NCBI GenBank assembly: GCA_020057885.1
Contig: JAGVEX010000016.1
Location: forward strand, 1-55,726
DNA length: 55,726 nt
Reading direction: 5' to 3'
From: a bacterium
GTDB taxonomy: Bacteria; Patescibacteriota; Patescibacteriia; Veblenbacterales; UBA10138
Shown: piece by piece, positions 9,800 to 42,410 of the stretch
Numbering within the stretch: position 1 is the first letter of the stretch
How the letters are laid out: every line of letters starts with the position of its first letter
Position numbers and translations under genes: made by a program
Notes under the pieces: generated by a model
What the model was told of the DNA's origin: nothing
What the model saw: only the letters and a program-made list of their open reading frames with translations
Databases searched by the model: none

Positions 9800-10225
9800 T
9801 TATTGGAAAAAAGCGAGCGCTTTATTTGAGGCGTTGATACACAGCCTGTCATCGGGCATATTAATAACTTTATCTAATAATCCGTCTACTGGTAGGTGAA
9901 TGGTAACTGTTCTTATCATTCTTTTTATATTATTTACATTATCGTGTAGATTTTTTACCGTGATAACTACCGAGAAGCACATTTTTGTAGCATCAAACGA
10001 AGATTTTTGCACGCGGCCTTTTAGGACGTAGTTAGGGACGACACTACCCGCCAGTCCATAAATTTCGCATTTTTTATTTTTTAGATTAGTAAGTATTTCC
10101 GGCAGTTGATTTGATGTGAGTAAGGCACATCCCTCTGGCACGTCAATCAAATCATGCCCATTACCACCCTCTGGCACATTTGTCATTTTACGATAATCAA
10201 TCGTAATTCTCTGTCTTTTCTTCAT
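9800..10225 (-). CDS. Hypothetical protein
   Basis: Complete 141-aa ORF with own RBS (ggagaat); family not recognised. Confidence 0.65.
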   Translation of the reverse strand: MKKRQRITIDYRKMTNVPEGGNGHDLIDVPEGCALLTSNQLPEILTNLKNKKCEIYGLAGSVVPNYVLKGRVQKSSFDATKMCFSVVITVKNLHDNVNNIKRMIRTVTIHLPVDGLLDKVINMPDDRLCINASNKALAFFQ

Positions 10226-12547: not shown

Positions 12548-13069
12548 TTACGTTTTGTTGTTTATGGTTTTACTTGGTTTCCATTCTTTAATGATTAGTA
12601 TGATAAGAAGAAGTAAAAATAAAGAAAAGAAAGTTATAACAAAGCCTTGTAGCCCTGGTTTATTACCACCATCATAATAAATAGATGTAATAGCGCTTAC
12701 ACACCAACAGGAAATAATGAGAAATATAAAAGTACTGAGAATTTTCGATCGTAATAAACTAGCGGATTGTTTGTTTGAAGGAGTTGTTAGTTGTTTTTTT
12801 CGCCAAGTGAATTTAATAATTTTGTCCCAGATTTCTTGAGCAAGATCAGACTTCCAAATGCCAAGTATAGCAAGTGGTAGCAATGAAACGTAAAATGATA
12901 GTAAATTTGCAAAAGGCATGACAGAATAAAATTCATCGGCTGATGGTTTTTTATCACTCATGAGGTTTAATAAAAAAATACACCCACTAGCAAAAGCCAC
13001 ATAAAAAACAGCTTCCCCAATTTTTTTCCAGCTAAACCACGAAGGTTTCATTTGTAAAATAGCGACCAT
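12548..13069 (-). CDS. Hypothetical membrane protein
   Basis: 173-aa ORF with several hydrophobic segments; own RBS (aggagac). Confidence 0.6.
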   Translation of the reverse strand: MVAILQMKPSWFSWKKIGEAVFYVAFASGCIFLLNLMSDKKPSADEFYSVMPFANLLSFYVSLLPLAILGIWKSDLAQEIWDKIIKFTWRKKQLTTPSNKQSASLLRSKILSTFIFLIISCWCVSAITSIYYDGGNKPGLQGFVITFFSLFLLLLIILIIKEWKPSKTINNKT

Positions 13070-13185: not shown

Positions 13186-15105
13186 ATGCCAAAAATATTA
13201 GGAATAGATTTAGGAACAACTAACTCTTGTATGGCCATCATCGAAGGTGGTGAGCCTAAGGTGTTAGAAAATAAAGAAGGCGCGCGCACCACGCCATCTG
13301 TTATAGCACAAGCCAAATCGGGTGAGCGCCTGGTTGGTTTGCTGGCTAAGCGCCAAGCAGTTACGAATCACGAGAATACGCTTTATTCCATTAAGCGCCT
13401 TATTGGCCGCCGCTGGGACGATCCAGAAGTTCAGCGTGATTTAAAAGTGTTACCGTTTAAGTTGGTAAAATCGGGTGAGGGAGTAAAAGTTGCTATGGGC
13501 GGCAAAGAATATAGTCCGCAGGAAATTTCCGCCATGGTATTGCAAAAAATGAAAGCTGATGCTGAAGAAAAGACTGGTGAAAAGATTACCGAAGCAGTAA
13601 TTACCGTACCGGCTTATTTTGACGATTCACAGCGCCAAGCTACCAAAGACGCCGGTGAAATTGCCGGTCTTAAAGTGCGGCGTATTATTAACGAACCTAC
13701 AGCCGCGGCTTTGGCCTATGGGTTTGATAAAAAAAAGGATGAAAAAATCGCAGTGTACGATCTTGGCGGTGGTACTTTTGATATTTCGGTGTTGGAAGTT
13801 TCAGCTGACACAGTAGAGGTTAAGGCTACCAACGGTGATACGCATTTGGGTGGCGATGATTTTGATCAGCGTATTATTCACTGGATTGTGGACGAATTTA
13901 AAAAAGATACATGTGTGGATTTATCCAAAGATAATTTAGCGCTACAACGCGTAAAAGAATCAGCGGAAAAAGCTAAAATTGAACTTTCCACCTCAATGGA
14001 AACGGAAATCAATCAGCCGTTCATTACTTCCGATGCCTCTGGCCCTAAGCATTTGGTAATGAAAATGACACGCGCCAAACTGGAGGAATTAGTGAACGAT
14101 TTAGTGCAAAAAACTTTAGAGCCGACTAAAAAAGCTTTGCAGGATGCCGGTTTAACCGTGGGACAGCTTAACGAGGTAGTTTTGGTTGGCGGTATGACTC
14201 GTATGCCGCTAGTGCTAAAAACTGTGGAAAAATTCTTTGGTAAAAAACCAAATGTGTCAGTGAATCCCGATGAAGTTGTGGCAGTGGGTGCGGCCGTGCA
14301 AGCTGGTGTTTTACAGGGTGAAGTGCGCGACGTACTATTGCTTGACGTAACTCCGCTTTCACTTGGCATTGAAACTTTGGGTGGCGTAATGACCAAATTA
14401 ATAGATCGTAATACCACTGTGCCAACCTCCAAGAGTCAAATTTTTTCTACCGCAGCCGATGGCCAAACCAGTGTGGAAATTCATGTGTTACAGGGTGAAC
14501 GCGAATTTGCGCCCGATAATAAAACCTTAGGCCGGTTTATTTTGGATGGTATTCCACCAGCCCCGCGCGGTATGCCGCAAGTGGAAGTATCTTTTGATAT
14601 AGATGCCAACGGTATTCTCTCGGTAAAAGCCAAAGATAAAGCGACCAGCAAAGAGCAAAAAATTACTATCACAGCTTCTAGTGGCCTTTCTAAAGATGAA
14701 GTGGAAAAAATGAAGAAAGAGGCAGAACTGCACGCGGAAGATGATAAAAAGAAGCGCGAACTTATAGATATGAAAAATACGGCAGAATCTACTGTGTATC
14801 AAACTGAGAAAATGCTAAAAGAGCAGGGCGACAAAGTGCCGGCTGATATTAAAAAAGATGTGGAAGAAAAATTAGAAGCTGTGAGAAAAATTAAGGACGC
14901 CGAAGATGTAGCTACAATTAAATCAGCGCTGGATGCTTTACAGCAGTCTGTAATTAAGATTGGCGAGGCAATGTATAAAGCTCAATCAGCCTCCGCGCAA
15001 GGCTCCGGCGGATCTTCGACCGGTTCAGAGCAGTCCACTGGTCAATCAGCAGAGGATAAGAAAGATGAGCCCATTAGTGGGCAGTATGAGGAGGTTAAGA
15101 AGTAA
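13186..15105 (+). CDS. dnaK: Molecular chaperone DnaK
   Basis: '[14 protein letters not shown]', '[15 protein letters not shown]', '[15 protein letters not shown]', '[10 protein letters not shown]'. Confidence 0.98.
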
Positions 15106-15113
15106 TTAAGTAG

Positions 15114-15137
15114 GGCGCCCCGCATACGCGGGGCGCC
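15114..15137 (+). terminator. Strong GC hairpin ggcgccccgc-atac-gcggggcgcc after dnaK
   Basis: Perfect 10-bp stem, 4-nt loop; no clear U-run, so terminator or 3' mRNA stabiliser. Confidence 0.6.
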
Positions 15138-15181: not shown

Positions 15182-15573
15182 AATAAAAAACTGGCCACCG
15201 AATATGCAAGTGACCAGTATGAGATGACAATCCGCGGGGTGGAGATTCTTTGCCAGGAAAAGCTCACGCAACTTGTCTTTTCTCTTCAAGAAGAATTGAC
15301 CTCCACCACCATTAAGGAGGTAATAGGGTTAGCGCTATGAAGATAGCAGACGTTGTAGTTTAGCTACTTGGCGTCACTTCCATGGGTTCCCCTTGTTATA
15401 TATTTTGGCTCGGGCTCCCTCCTTAGCTATAGTGTGCCAGTGTCATTACTTCCTGGCAGCCCCTAAAAAGTGTTACTACTGGATTGTCGTGGAGGTATAC
15501 TTCATGATAGCCTCCTTTGTTTGTTGTTACGCCGCCAGCCGAGTACACTATTAAAGTACAGGTCAGCAACTTA
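15182..15573 (-). ncRNA. Candidate structured non-coding RNA (~390 nt), family unassigned
   Basis: Minus-strand promoter TTGACT (15608-15603) / 17 bp / TAAGAT (15585-15580); multiple hairpins (GGAGGcTAT..AgTAtaCCTCC; GCCAG..CTGGC; GTAG-ctaaa-CTAC; ACCTCC..GGAGGT); terminator hairpin 15217-15191 followed by TTTTTT. No convincing ORF. Confidence 0.5.
15191..15217 (-). terminator. Rho-independent terminator CTGGTCAC-ttgcatattcg-GTGGCCAG-TTTTTT (minus strand)
   Basis: 8-bp stem (one G-U) plus U6 run. Confidence 0.75.
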
Positions 15574-15579
15574 AGCATT

Positions 15580-15608
15580 ATCTTATTCCAAATCAAATAA
15601 TTAGTCAA
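15580..15608 (-). promoter_or_regulatory. Putative promoter of the candidate ncRNA (TTGACT-N17-TAAGAT)
   Basis: -35/-10 boxes, 17-bp spacer, minus strand. Confidence 0.6.
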
Positions 15609-15629
15609 TTTACAATTTTATTCCATATT

Positions 15630-15663
15630 ATTACTTTCTAATTTGCCTAAATAGGAAAGTAGT
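15630..15663. repeat. 34-bp palindromic repeat, copy 1 (attactttctaatttgcctaaataggaaagtagt)
   Basis: Reverse-complement-like copy of 18328-18361; internal inverted repeat. Confidence 0.7.
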
Positions 15664-15722
15664 AGAAATAAAAATATTTAAAATTTATTCATTATTCATA
15701 ATTCTTAATTCCAAATTAATTT

Positions 15723-15747
15723 AAAACTCTTACTCTTAACTCTTACT
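15723..15747 (+). repeat. 25-nt leader repeat copy 1: aaaactcttactcttaactcttact
   Basis: Identical to 23200-23224; ends 7 nt before an ATG. Confidence 0.8.
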
Positions 15748-15754
15748 TAACTAT

Positions 15755-16042
15755 ATGCCTAACGAACAACAGCAAATCCAAGTCAAAATCAGCGATAAGG
15801 TGCTAAAAGGTGTTTATGCCAATTTGGCGCAAATTGCCCACAGCAAAGAAGAATTTGTTATAGATTTTATGACCATGATGCCACCTCAGGGTATTGTAGG
15901 CGCGCGGGTTTATATGAATCCAGCCCATGCCAAGCGCTTAGGGCATGCTTTGCTCGAGAATGTAAAAAAATATGAAGATCAATTTGGCAAGATTGAAGAC
16001 GTTGCCCAACAAACTCCAGAAGTTGGCTTTAAAACCAGCTAG
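15755..16042 (+). CDS. DUF3467-family protein
   Basis: 'LKGVYANLAQIAHSKEEFVIDFMTMMPPQGIVGARVYMNPAHAKRLGHALLENVKKYE'. Confidence 0.8.
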   Translation: MPNEQQQIQVKISDKVLKGVYANLAQIAHSKEEFVIDFMTMMPPQGIVGARVYMNPAHAKRLGHALLENVKKYEDQFGKIEDVAQQTPEVGFKTS

Positions 16043-16129: not shown

Positions 16130-16426
16130 ATGTCTGATAAACAAAATACTGATCAGTTAGTTGTAGATGAAGGTGGACAATATGCATTTTTTCCACCATC
16201 AGATGGTACCAGAAAGTCTGGACCTATTGGACCGACTGAGGCGGATAGAGTTATTGCAACTATTAGATCAGGACAAATAGAACTTGATATACATCAAAAA
16301 AAAGAAGATTCATGGGAAATTTCAAAGGATTATCTTAGTTTTCGAGTACAAGAGGAGTTAGTAGCAATAGATCCGGATTCTTCAGATATTCCTGTTTTTA
16401 AAGAAGAAGAATCCAGTTTTTTATGA
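16130..16426 (+). CDS. Hypothetical protein
   Basis: 98-aa ORF, RBS aggaga, upstream TTGACA at 16046; family not recognised. Confidence 0.6.
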   Translation: MSDKQNTDQLVVDEGGQYAFFPPSDGTRKSGPIGPTEADRVIATIRSGQIELDIHQKKEDSWEISKDYLSFRVQEELVAIDPDSSDIPVFKEEESSFL

Positions 16427-16488: not shown

Positions 16489-17619
16489 ATGGCTAGTAAA
16501 GATTATTATCAAACATTAGGAATATCAAAATCCGCTTCGCCAGATGAAGTTAAAAAAGCTTTTCGTAAACTGGCACACCAGCATCATCCGGATAAGCACG
16601 GTGGTTCCGATGCTAAGTTTAAAGAGATAAACGAGGCTTACCAAGTGCTTTCTGATTCCCAAAAGCGGCAACAGTATGACCAATTTGGCGCTAATTTTGA
16701 AAGTGCTGGCGGCCCTGGTGGTTTTAATTGGCAAGATTTTGCGCGCGCGCAACAGGGTGGCTTTAATCAAAGTAACGTTAATTTTGATTTTGGCGACATT
16801 GGTGATTTGTTTGGTGACTTTTTTGGCGGGGGAGCCGGTCGCCGCTCCAGACGCGCCGGACCGCGGCGTGGGGCGGATGTGGAGTTTGTCACAGCGATTG
16901 ATTTTCGTGAAGCTGTTTTTGGGGTGGAAAAAGTTTTGCGTTTTGAAAAATCTATAGTGTGCAATCATTGCAAAGGCTCGGGCGCCGAACCGGGGGCTAA
17001 AATAAACACTTGCTCAACCTGCGGCGGCGCTGGGCAAGTAGAGCAAATGCAGCGCACTTTTTTGGGCGCTATGCGTACAGTGGCTGTTTGTCCAACCTGC
17101 GGCGGCGAAGGGAAAAGCGCGGAAAAAGCTTGTACCCATTGCCACGGCAAGGGGAGTGAAGTAGGAGTAAGAGAACTTAAGGTCCAAATTCCCGCTGGTA
17201 TTGATAATGGGCAAGCTATTAGGCTTTCGGGCGAAGGCGAGCCAGGCGTCAAAAGCGGACCGGCTGGCGATTTACATTTAATTGTGCAAGTTAGGCCCGA
17301 TAAGCTATTTAAACGCGAAGGTTACAATTTAACCACTGCCCGGGAAATAAGTATGTCACTTGCCAGTTTGGGCGGCAAGGTTAAATTAGCCACGCTTGAT
17401 GGTGATATTTATTTAAAAATTCCAGCCGGCACGCAAAGCGGCAAGATTTTTAAGTTAGAAAGCAAGGGCGTGCCGCATTTACGCGGTAAGAATAGAGGCG
17501 ATATTTTAGTAACAATTTATGTAAAAACTCCGGAAAAACTTAGTAAAAAAGAAAAAGAATCAATCCGCGCCTTGCCCAAATTAGCGGGTGAGGAAATAGA
17601 TGATTTCGGGTGGTTTTAA
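16489..17619 (+). CDS. dnaJ: Chaperone DnaJ
   Basis: J-domain with HPD ('HQHHPDKHGG'), G/F region, four CxxCxGxG-type zinc motifs. Confidence 0.97.
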   Translation: MASKDYYQTLGISKSASPDEVKKAFRKLAHQHHPDKHGGSDAKFKEINEAYQVLSDSQKRQQYDQFGANFESAGGPGGFNWQDFARAQQGGFNQSNVNFDFGDIGDLFGDFFGGGAGRRSRRAGPRRGADVEFVTAIDFREAVFGVEKVLRFEKSIVCNHCKGSGAEPGAKINTCSTCGGAGQVEQMQRTFLGAMRTVAVCPTCGGEGKSAEKACTHCHGKGSEVGVRELKVQIPAGIDNGQAIRLSGEGEPGVKSGPAGDLHLIVQVRPDKLFKREGYNLTTAREISMSLASLGGKVKLATLDGDIYLKIPAGTQSGKIFKLESKGVPHLRGKNRGDILVTIYVKTPEKLSKKEKESIRALPKLAGEEIDDFGWF

Positions 17620-18327: not shown

Positions 18328-18361
18328 ACTACTTTCCTACTTAGGCAAATAGGAAAGTAGT
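18328..18361. repeat. 34-bp palindromic repeat, copy 2 (actactttcctacttaggcaaataggaaagtagt)
   Basis: 11-bp perfect terminal inverted repeat (actactttcct/aggaaagtagt); inverted near-copy at 15630-15663. Confidence 0.75.
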
Positions 18362-28693: not shown

Positions 28694-29050
28694 ATGGATC
28701 TCTATCAGCAGAACATTCTGGATTATTATAAACATCCTCGCAAATCAGGCGAGGTGGCTGGGGCTACCCATCATTGCAAAACTTCCAATCCTTTGTGTGG
28801 TGACAATGTAGAGCTTTGGCTTAAATTAGATGGTAATAAAATTGTTAAGGCTGGCTGGCAGGGTGAGGGTTGTGTATTATCACAAGCTGCTTCGGATATG
28901 TTGTCAGAATATTTAGAGGGTAAAACAATTTTAGAAATTAAAAATATTGATAAAAATGTTTTACTTAAAATGGTGGGAGTGGAGCTTGGGCCGAATAGGT
29001 TAAAATGCGCTCTCTTGCCGCTGGATGCCTTAAGAGAAGCAATTAAATAA
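28694..29050 (+). CDS. sufU: Fe-S scaffold SufU/IscU-like
   Basis: 'ILDYYKHPRKSGEVAGATHHCKTSNPLCGDNVELWL', 'GEGCVLSQAASDMLSEYLEGK', 'RLKCALLPLDALREAI'. Confidence 0.9.
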   Translation: MDLYQQNILDYYKHPRKSGEVAGATHHCKTSNPLCGDNVELWLKLDGNKIVKAGWQGEGCVLSQAASDMLSEYLEGKTILEIKNIDKNVLLKMVGVELGPNRLKCALLPLDALREAIK

Positions 29051-29060
29051 ATTTAAAATT

Positions 29061-29087
29061 AAAAAGCCTTTTTATCAAAGGCTTTTT
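29061..29087 (+). terminator. Terminator aaaaagccttt...aaaggcttttt after sufU
   Basis: 11-bp stem with A/U flanks. Confidence 0.75.
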
Positions 29088-41921: not shown

Positions 41922-41933
41922 GATGTTTAATTT

Positions 41934-42410
41934 GCCAGATAAACCAATAAGCCGAATTTTGTATTCCGATTTGCATCGGAACAGCGACTATCTATCTTGT
42001 TCCTAATTCGCATTAGGACTCTAGCTACCAACCCGTCCCGCCTAGCGGGACCTACTTGGTATTGCACCGGGTAGAGTTTGCCTAGCCCTCCAAATCACTT
42101 TGGAAGCTGGTGAGCTCTTACTTTACCCGCCGAAGCGAGCTATCCCGCGCGTAGGCGGGCTCACCGTTTCACCCATCACCCCGTAAAATTAATTTTGCAA
42201 TTAATCACGTGGCTGGTTTATTTTCTGTTGTACTTGTCCTGCGGCCTTGTTACCAAGGCCAACGGCTCCTGTTAGGAGCTACCCCTCCCTAAAAGCGGGA
42301 GCGCTATGGTGTTCGGACTTTCCTCCCCTCGACAAGCTCGGGGTAAACCCCAAAGTATATTAGGGTTTGTCTTGAGCTTGCCGAAAGGCAATCGCCTAGA
42401 TTTACCTAGC
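41934..42410 (-). ncRNA. rnpB: RNase P RNA (type A-like)
   Basis: Minus strand contains 'gaggaaagtccg', 'gacaagtacaacagaaaataaaccagcc', 'gggtgaaa', 'gtaagagctcacc', 'ggcaaactctacccggtgcaataccaagtagg', 'acaaaattcggcttat'; 5'/3' ends pair as P1. Exact ends approximate. Confidence 0.95.
42330..42384 (-). repeat. Long hairpin of dispersed-repeat character (cgacaagctcggggtaaaccc...gggtttgtcttgagcttgccga) within the 5' domain of rnpB
   Basis: About 20-bp imperfect inverted repeat; arms resemble the common 'tcgacaagctcagg' dispersed repeat. Confidence 0.6.

Follow-up and report, generated by a model that had tools for sequence, protein, structure and literature searches.

The closest described counterparts of the locus considered here are the bacterial cis-antisense and orphan intergenic small RNAs (sRNAs) with intrinsic terminators. 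Like members of that class, the candidate is intergenic, has a promoter-like site, an intrinsic terminator, no ORF and a narrow phylogenetic range, and is complementary to a possible read-through mRNA, while it differs from them in being long (~390 nt) and in being a putative RNA known from sequence alone. In our searches, the literature offered nothing specific about sRNAs in these bacteria or about antisense RNA of dnaK or dnaJ.

Several longer RNAs also invite comparison. GOLLD, ROOL, and OLE are large ornate bacterial RNAs (PMC12286853). They share with the candidate a long non-coding sequence and an unclear role, but the candidate has no Rfam match, no homologues, and a predicted fold that does not go beyond chance. 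RNase P RNA (RF00010) is encoded in the same window, also on the minus strand, with similar length and a terminator; however, it has a strong fold and could be detected in 6 of 7 same-family genomes, whereas neither holds for the candidate, and its separate position excludes it as the candidate's identity. The tmRNA (RF00023) is of similar length, but neither Rfam at the locus nor ARAGORN in the window gave a match, and the genome's tmRNA lies on contig 6. For 6S RNA, RF00013 had no match at the locus, elsewhere in the genome, or in the seven same-family genomes, although many distant lineages escape this model, 9 of 14 control genomes among them. More generally, and in keeping with the original prediction of an unassigned RNA, Rfam 15 at curated cut-offs found nothing at the locus; with E relaxed to 10, all matches stayed at chance level, and two of them span the dnaK 3' hairpin.

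The chaperone block and its variable neighborhood

The window, i.e., the whole 55,726-nt stretch that was analyzed, is part of a 952-kb genome (21 contigs) from an uncultured bacterium with a reduced (tiny) genome. It holds a plus-strand chaperone block in the order hrcA, a GrpE-like ORF (named from sequence and position), hsp20, dnaK, spacer, DUF3467 gene, 98-aa orphan, and dnaJ. The original prediction placed the candidate between dnaK and dnaJ; the chaperone setting stands, while the actual flanks are dnaK and the DUF3467 gene, with dnaJ the third gene downstream. The candidate sits on the minus strand inside the 649-nt dnaK-DUF3467 spacer (Table 1), has a GC content of 46% vs 18% in the adjoining 15580-15754, and occurs as a single copy in its own genome, so that a repeated or mobile copy was rejected. 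The nearest minus-strand gene upstream of its terminator ends 3.5 kb off. Among named genomes, a MAG of Candidatus Kerfeldbacteria holds the best DUF3467 relative (77% identity), so that the host probably belongs to, or lies close to, this patescibacterial group.

Table 1 Positions in the window of the candidate, its predicted elements, and the features around it
Feature	Coordinates	Strand	Description
dnaK	13186-15105	+	Chaperone block
dnaK 3' hairpin	15114-15137	+	GGCGCCCCGC-ATAC-GCGGGGCGCC, without T tract; weak terminator at best
Open frame	15182-15340	+	52 codons
Putative transcript	15182-15574	-	~390 nt (393), inferred from promoter position and terminator
Intrinsic terminator	15184-15218	-	10-bp stem ACTGGTCACT/GGTGGCCAGT, loop 9, then TTTTTT
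Long-range stem	15488-15481/15233-15226	-	GACAATCC/GGATTGTC; predicted, mean probability 1.00
Long-range stem	15463-15460/15239-15236	-	GGGG/CCCC; predicted, mean probability 0.77
Long-range stem	15458-15449/15260-15251	-	TGCCAGGAAG/TTTCCTGGCA; predicted, mean probability 0.69
Anti-SD-like word	15314-15321	-	ACCTCCTT; predicted mostly paired
61-aa frame	15423-15608	-	
9-codon ORF	15473-15505	-	MKYTSTTIQ, tandem stops TAG TAA; 5 nt after AAAGGAGG (AAAGGAGG-N5-ATG)
Hairpin	15491-15515	-	GGAGG of SD-like AAAGGAGG (15518-15511) with CCUCC (15495-15491); predicted, helix pairing probability 1.00
Promoter-like site	15580-15608	-	TTGACT-N17-TAAGAT; 9/12 match
Promoter-like site for DUF3467	15602-15631		Weak
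Dispersed palindrome	15634-15658	-	
DUF3467 gene	15755-16042	+	Chaperone block
98-aa orphan gene	16130-16426	+	Between DUF3467 gene and dnaJ
dnaJ	16489-17619	+	
Dispersed palindrome	18333-18357	+	
RNase P RNA	41932-42408	-	

The order dnaK-DUF3467 is kept in five same-family genomes, and the readable spacer differs in each. One holds a GIY-YIG-like ORF and a second, HD-like ORF (G001; names read from the sequence), others a long ORF (G007) or an 84-aa ORF (G004), one is only 93 nt long (G006), and one, from another genus (G002, locus L007), has ~200 GC-rich nucleotides with a long imperfect hairpin, apparently non-coding and without an Rfam match. This last spacer was rejected as a homologue, having no sequence similarity to the candidate and no match to its covariance model (R1). 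The dnaK-DUF3467 spacer is a site where lineage-specific material accumulates, and the candidate is this genome's version of it.

Separately, the window carries two copies of a dispersed palindrome with the consensus CTACTTTCCTATTT-AGGC-AAATAGGAAAGTAG, which occurs in 6 copies in its own genome and 1 to 6 copies in four of the seven same-family genomes (a reversed control gave 0 matches), with copies at L067, L072, L074, L076, and L077. In three genomes a copy precedes DUF3467 by ~100 nt, and several copies flank or adjoin genes for 86-92-aa ArsR-type regulators. At L066 (G002:C17), palindromes at 390, 995, and 1849 share one orientation with a cassette-like spacing of 600-850 nt and bracket single genes or pairs, namely an 87-aa and 74-aa pair (toxin-antitoxin-like by sequence) and a 267-aa gene. 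The palindrome may be an operator of an ArsR-type regulator or a small repeat element; the link to ArsR is unproven, given that ArsR-type genes are present in three genomes that lack the palindrome.

Terminator, promoter, and coding potential

To calibrate terminators, the whole window was scanned and scored for hairpins with T tails, with a threshold score of 13, which yielded 15 terminators vs 1.6 in block shuffles. Two of these lie inside coding sequence and 13 are intergenic, and 12 of the latter sit within 40 nt (at most 37 nt) of a same-strand gene 3' end, following 11 protein genes and RNase P (the one at 29062, for example, follows a 118-aa ORF, 28694-29050). The sole intergenic terminator of this quality that does not directly follow a gene is the candidate's (scored at 15218-15190), which ties for second-highest score in the window, is matched in score by 2 of 2000 spacer shuffles, and has a local fold of z -4.6; a stricter pattern scan with a loop limit of 8 did not list it, its loop being 9. 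The rho-independent terminator of the original prediction is therefore present, and it is the one strong signal of the locus, the other sequence features being mostly weak individually. Because the 12 other such terminators all mark gene ends, and because so few shuffles do as well, a minus-strand transcription unit that starts within the spacer and has no credible protein gene is probable. That there is no such unit, and that AT-rich and GC-rich spacer DNA has produced a terminator-like palindrome by coincidence, would agree with chance-level promoter and folding signals and with the lack of conservation, but it fits poorly with the shuffles and with the company that such terminators otherwise keep in the window, and we consider it highly improbable.

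The minus-strand promoter that had been predicted exists as a site, although its 9/12 match is not significant alone: sites this good number 20 vs 11.7 expected in the 5.2 kb scanned, which is AT-rich. Since such sites are near chance level, the candidate promoter weighs little. Judging from its -10 site, transcription would start at ~15574-15572.

The absence of a credible minus-strand ORF was borne out. Frames before the terminator are short, have codon scores at out-of-frame level, and have no matches in Pfam, PHROGs, or NCBIfam. For the 61-aa frame, a search of 287 genomes gave nothing convincing (one match had E 0.0045 at 39% identity), and phages gave no match. Masking the stops to search whole frames brought no minus-strand Pfam match, nor did the one such frame tried against plasmids match there. 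On the plus strand, the open frame has a weak coding score of 0.082 per codon (gene median 0.257; out-of-frame 95th percentile 0.024), and was rejected as a gene, with a score just above out-of-frame and no convincing family or homologue.

One possible coding element on the minus strand is a 9-codon ORF led by a Shine-Dalgarno (SD) word. Of 37 gene starts checked in this window, 6 show an SD-like motif where one would be expected, 31 do not, and most starts have A/T-rich leaders; the full AAAGGAGG occurs one other time only. Genes with an SD include several small or orphan ones, e.g., 9800-10225 (minus), 12548-13069 (minus), and 16130-16426 (plus). A short mRNA, in which this ORF (15505-15476) with its ideal SD, or another tiny ORF, encodes a small peptide and is followed by a long 3' region, would account for the tandem stops and for an SD so unusual here. 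However, it would encode nine codons only, its stop lies ~260 nt before the terminator vs at most 37 nt for the other terminators, and a predicted hairpin would sequester the SD. We regard this reading as distinctly unlikely; the ORF, which has no known homologue, may be a chance occurrence.

The same SD has another potential source, namely a horizontally acquired minus-strand gene that has decayed, with its SD and start codon (15518-15503) and terminator surviving, its frame broken, and no function left. A full AAAGGAGG where few genes use SD would suit such a remnant, as would the different ORFs held by the relatives' spacers, which imply that genes are gained and lost here, and the lack of conservation of the locus. 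Against it, the minus-strand frames show no residual codon signal, and the stop-masked frames, as described above, brought neither a Pfam nor a plasmid match. On balance a decayed gene is unlikely, though it deserves to be taken seriously.

Folding and Shine-Dalgarno-like words

The candidate had been described as structured, with several hairpins. Its 393-nt RNA is predicted to fold at -110.4 kcal/mol, which is z -1.24 against dinucleotide shuffles; the core of the RNA gives z -1.55, and the plus strand of that core folds better (z -2.16). RNase P of the same window, as a positive control, reaches z -6.3. The candidate RNA is not folded beyond chance, and the description is unsupported because the fold lies within the shuffled range, with no homologues in which covariation could show. 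Individual helices are nonetheless predicted with high probability, including a hairpin on the SD-like word and long-range stems spanning 15226 to 15488 on the minus strand, while the overall fold is no more stable than that of the shuffles.

The reported richness in SD-like and anti-SD-like words was confirmed as to their presence and enrichment, with some of them predicted to pair: the minus strand has GGAGG three times and CCTCC twice, i.e., 5 vs 0.7 expected, a number reached by 0.05% of shuffles, for a motif chosen after seeing the data. The link to the ribosome or translation that had been built on these words found support in no test. One way in which they could matter is a trans-acting sRNA whose SD-like or anti-SD-like segments (e.g., ACCTCCTT, read 15321-15314) pair with mRNA translation starts. 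The enrichment speaks for such an RNA, but it was defined after the fact, an SD is available as a target at only 6 of 37 window gene starts, ACCTCCTT and the first CCUCC are predicted to be paired within the RNA, and a conserved seed is not definable without homologues; we accordingly judge trans action to be clearly improbable. More ambitious still, and extremely improbable, would be a ribosome-interacting RNA of a new kind that presents SD and anti-SD segments and tunes translation globally in a genome that seldom uses SD. Of the stand-alone non-coding RNA first proposed, the supported part is a minus-strand unit without a protein gene, on the strength of the terminator and the lack of convincing coding homologues, whereas "structured" and "ribosome-related" are not upheld.

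Phylogenetic range and the proposed cis-antisense effect

The candidate DNA was not found in 57 relatives, nor, apart from short chance-like matches, in 382 same-class genomes (7 same-family and ~375 others). The class-wide matches, 18-38 nt long and in many cases located at AAAGGAGG-ATG, were dismissed as chance or as ordinary gene starts. A single-sequence covariance model (R1) likewise had no match in the 57 relatives. RNase P DNA from the window, used as a control, finds its homologues in 6 of the 7 same-family genomes at E 2e-13 to 2e-67, and the DNA search would therefore detect an RNA conserved like RNase P. A phage or plasmid origin was rejected, with no significant DNA match (phage matches of 22 nt at E 0.4, none in plasmids), and viral contigs contained neither of two core words as an exact match. 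Among the relatives searched, then, neither homologues at dnaK/dnaJ or other loci nor codon-type conservation came to light. The candidate is an orphan sequence that appears to be lineage-restricted, and because no homologue was found there is no sign of selection on it.

We tentatively favor, at somewhat less than an even chance, the reading of the locus as a lineage-restricted sRNA gene in a variable spacer, whose likeliest effect would be cis-antisense, on dnaK-DUF3467-dnaJ read-through. Transcription would run on the minus strand from ~15574 to the intrinsic terminator at 15218-15184, giving an RNA whose position would make it complementary to the spacer in whatever mRNA reads through from dnaK into DUF3467 and dnaJ. 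Read-through of this kind is plausible because the hairpin at the dnaK 3' end has no T tract and because no plus-strand terminator of score at least 13 occurs from dnaK to the end of dnaJ, and overlap with the opposite-strand transcript is likewise plausible from this geometry and the weak dnaK terminator. Through pairing with the read-through RNA, its cleavage, or transcriptional interference with it, the sRNA might uncouple dnaK from DUF3467 and dnaJ farther downstream, which complementarity to a plausible mRNA makes the simplest functional reading. Read-through need not matter, however, since DUF3467 is equipped with an AT-rich leader of its own as well as with a weak promoter-like site.

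The candidate alone changes little, because it has no family placement and offers no possibility of comparative study. The approach behind it, i.e., calibrating intrinsic terminators on known gene ends and then seeking those that no gene accounts for, is a simple one that could catalog such RNAs across a genome. If the candidate is transcribed, it would be an orphan sRNA of an uncultured, reduced-genome bacterium, placed to set dnaK expression apart from that of the downstream genes.
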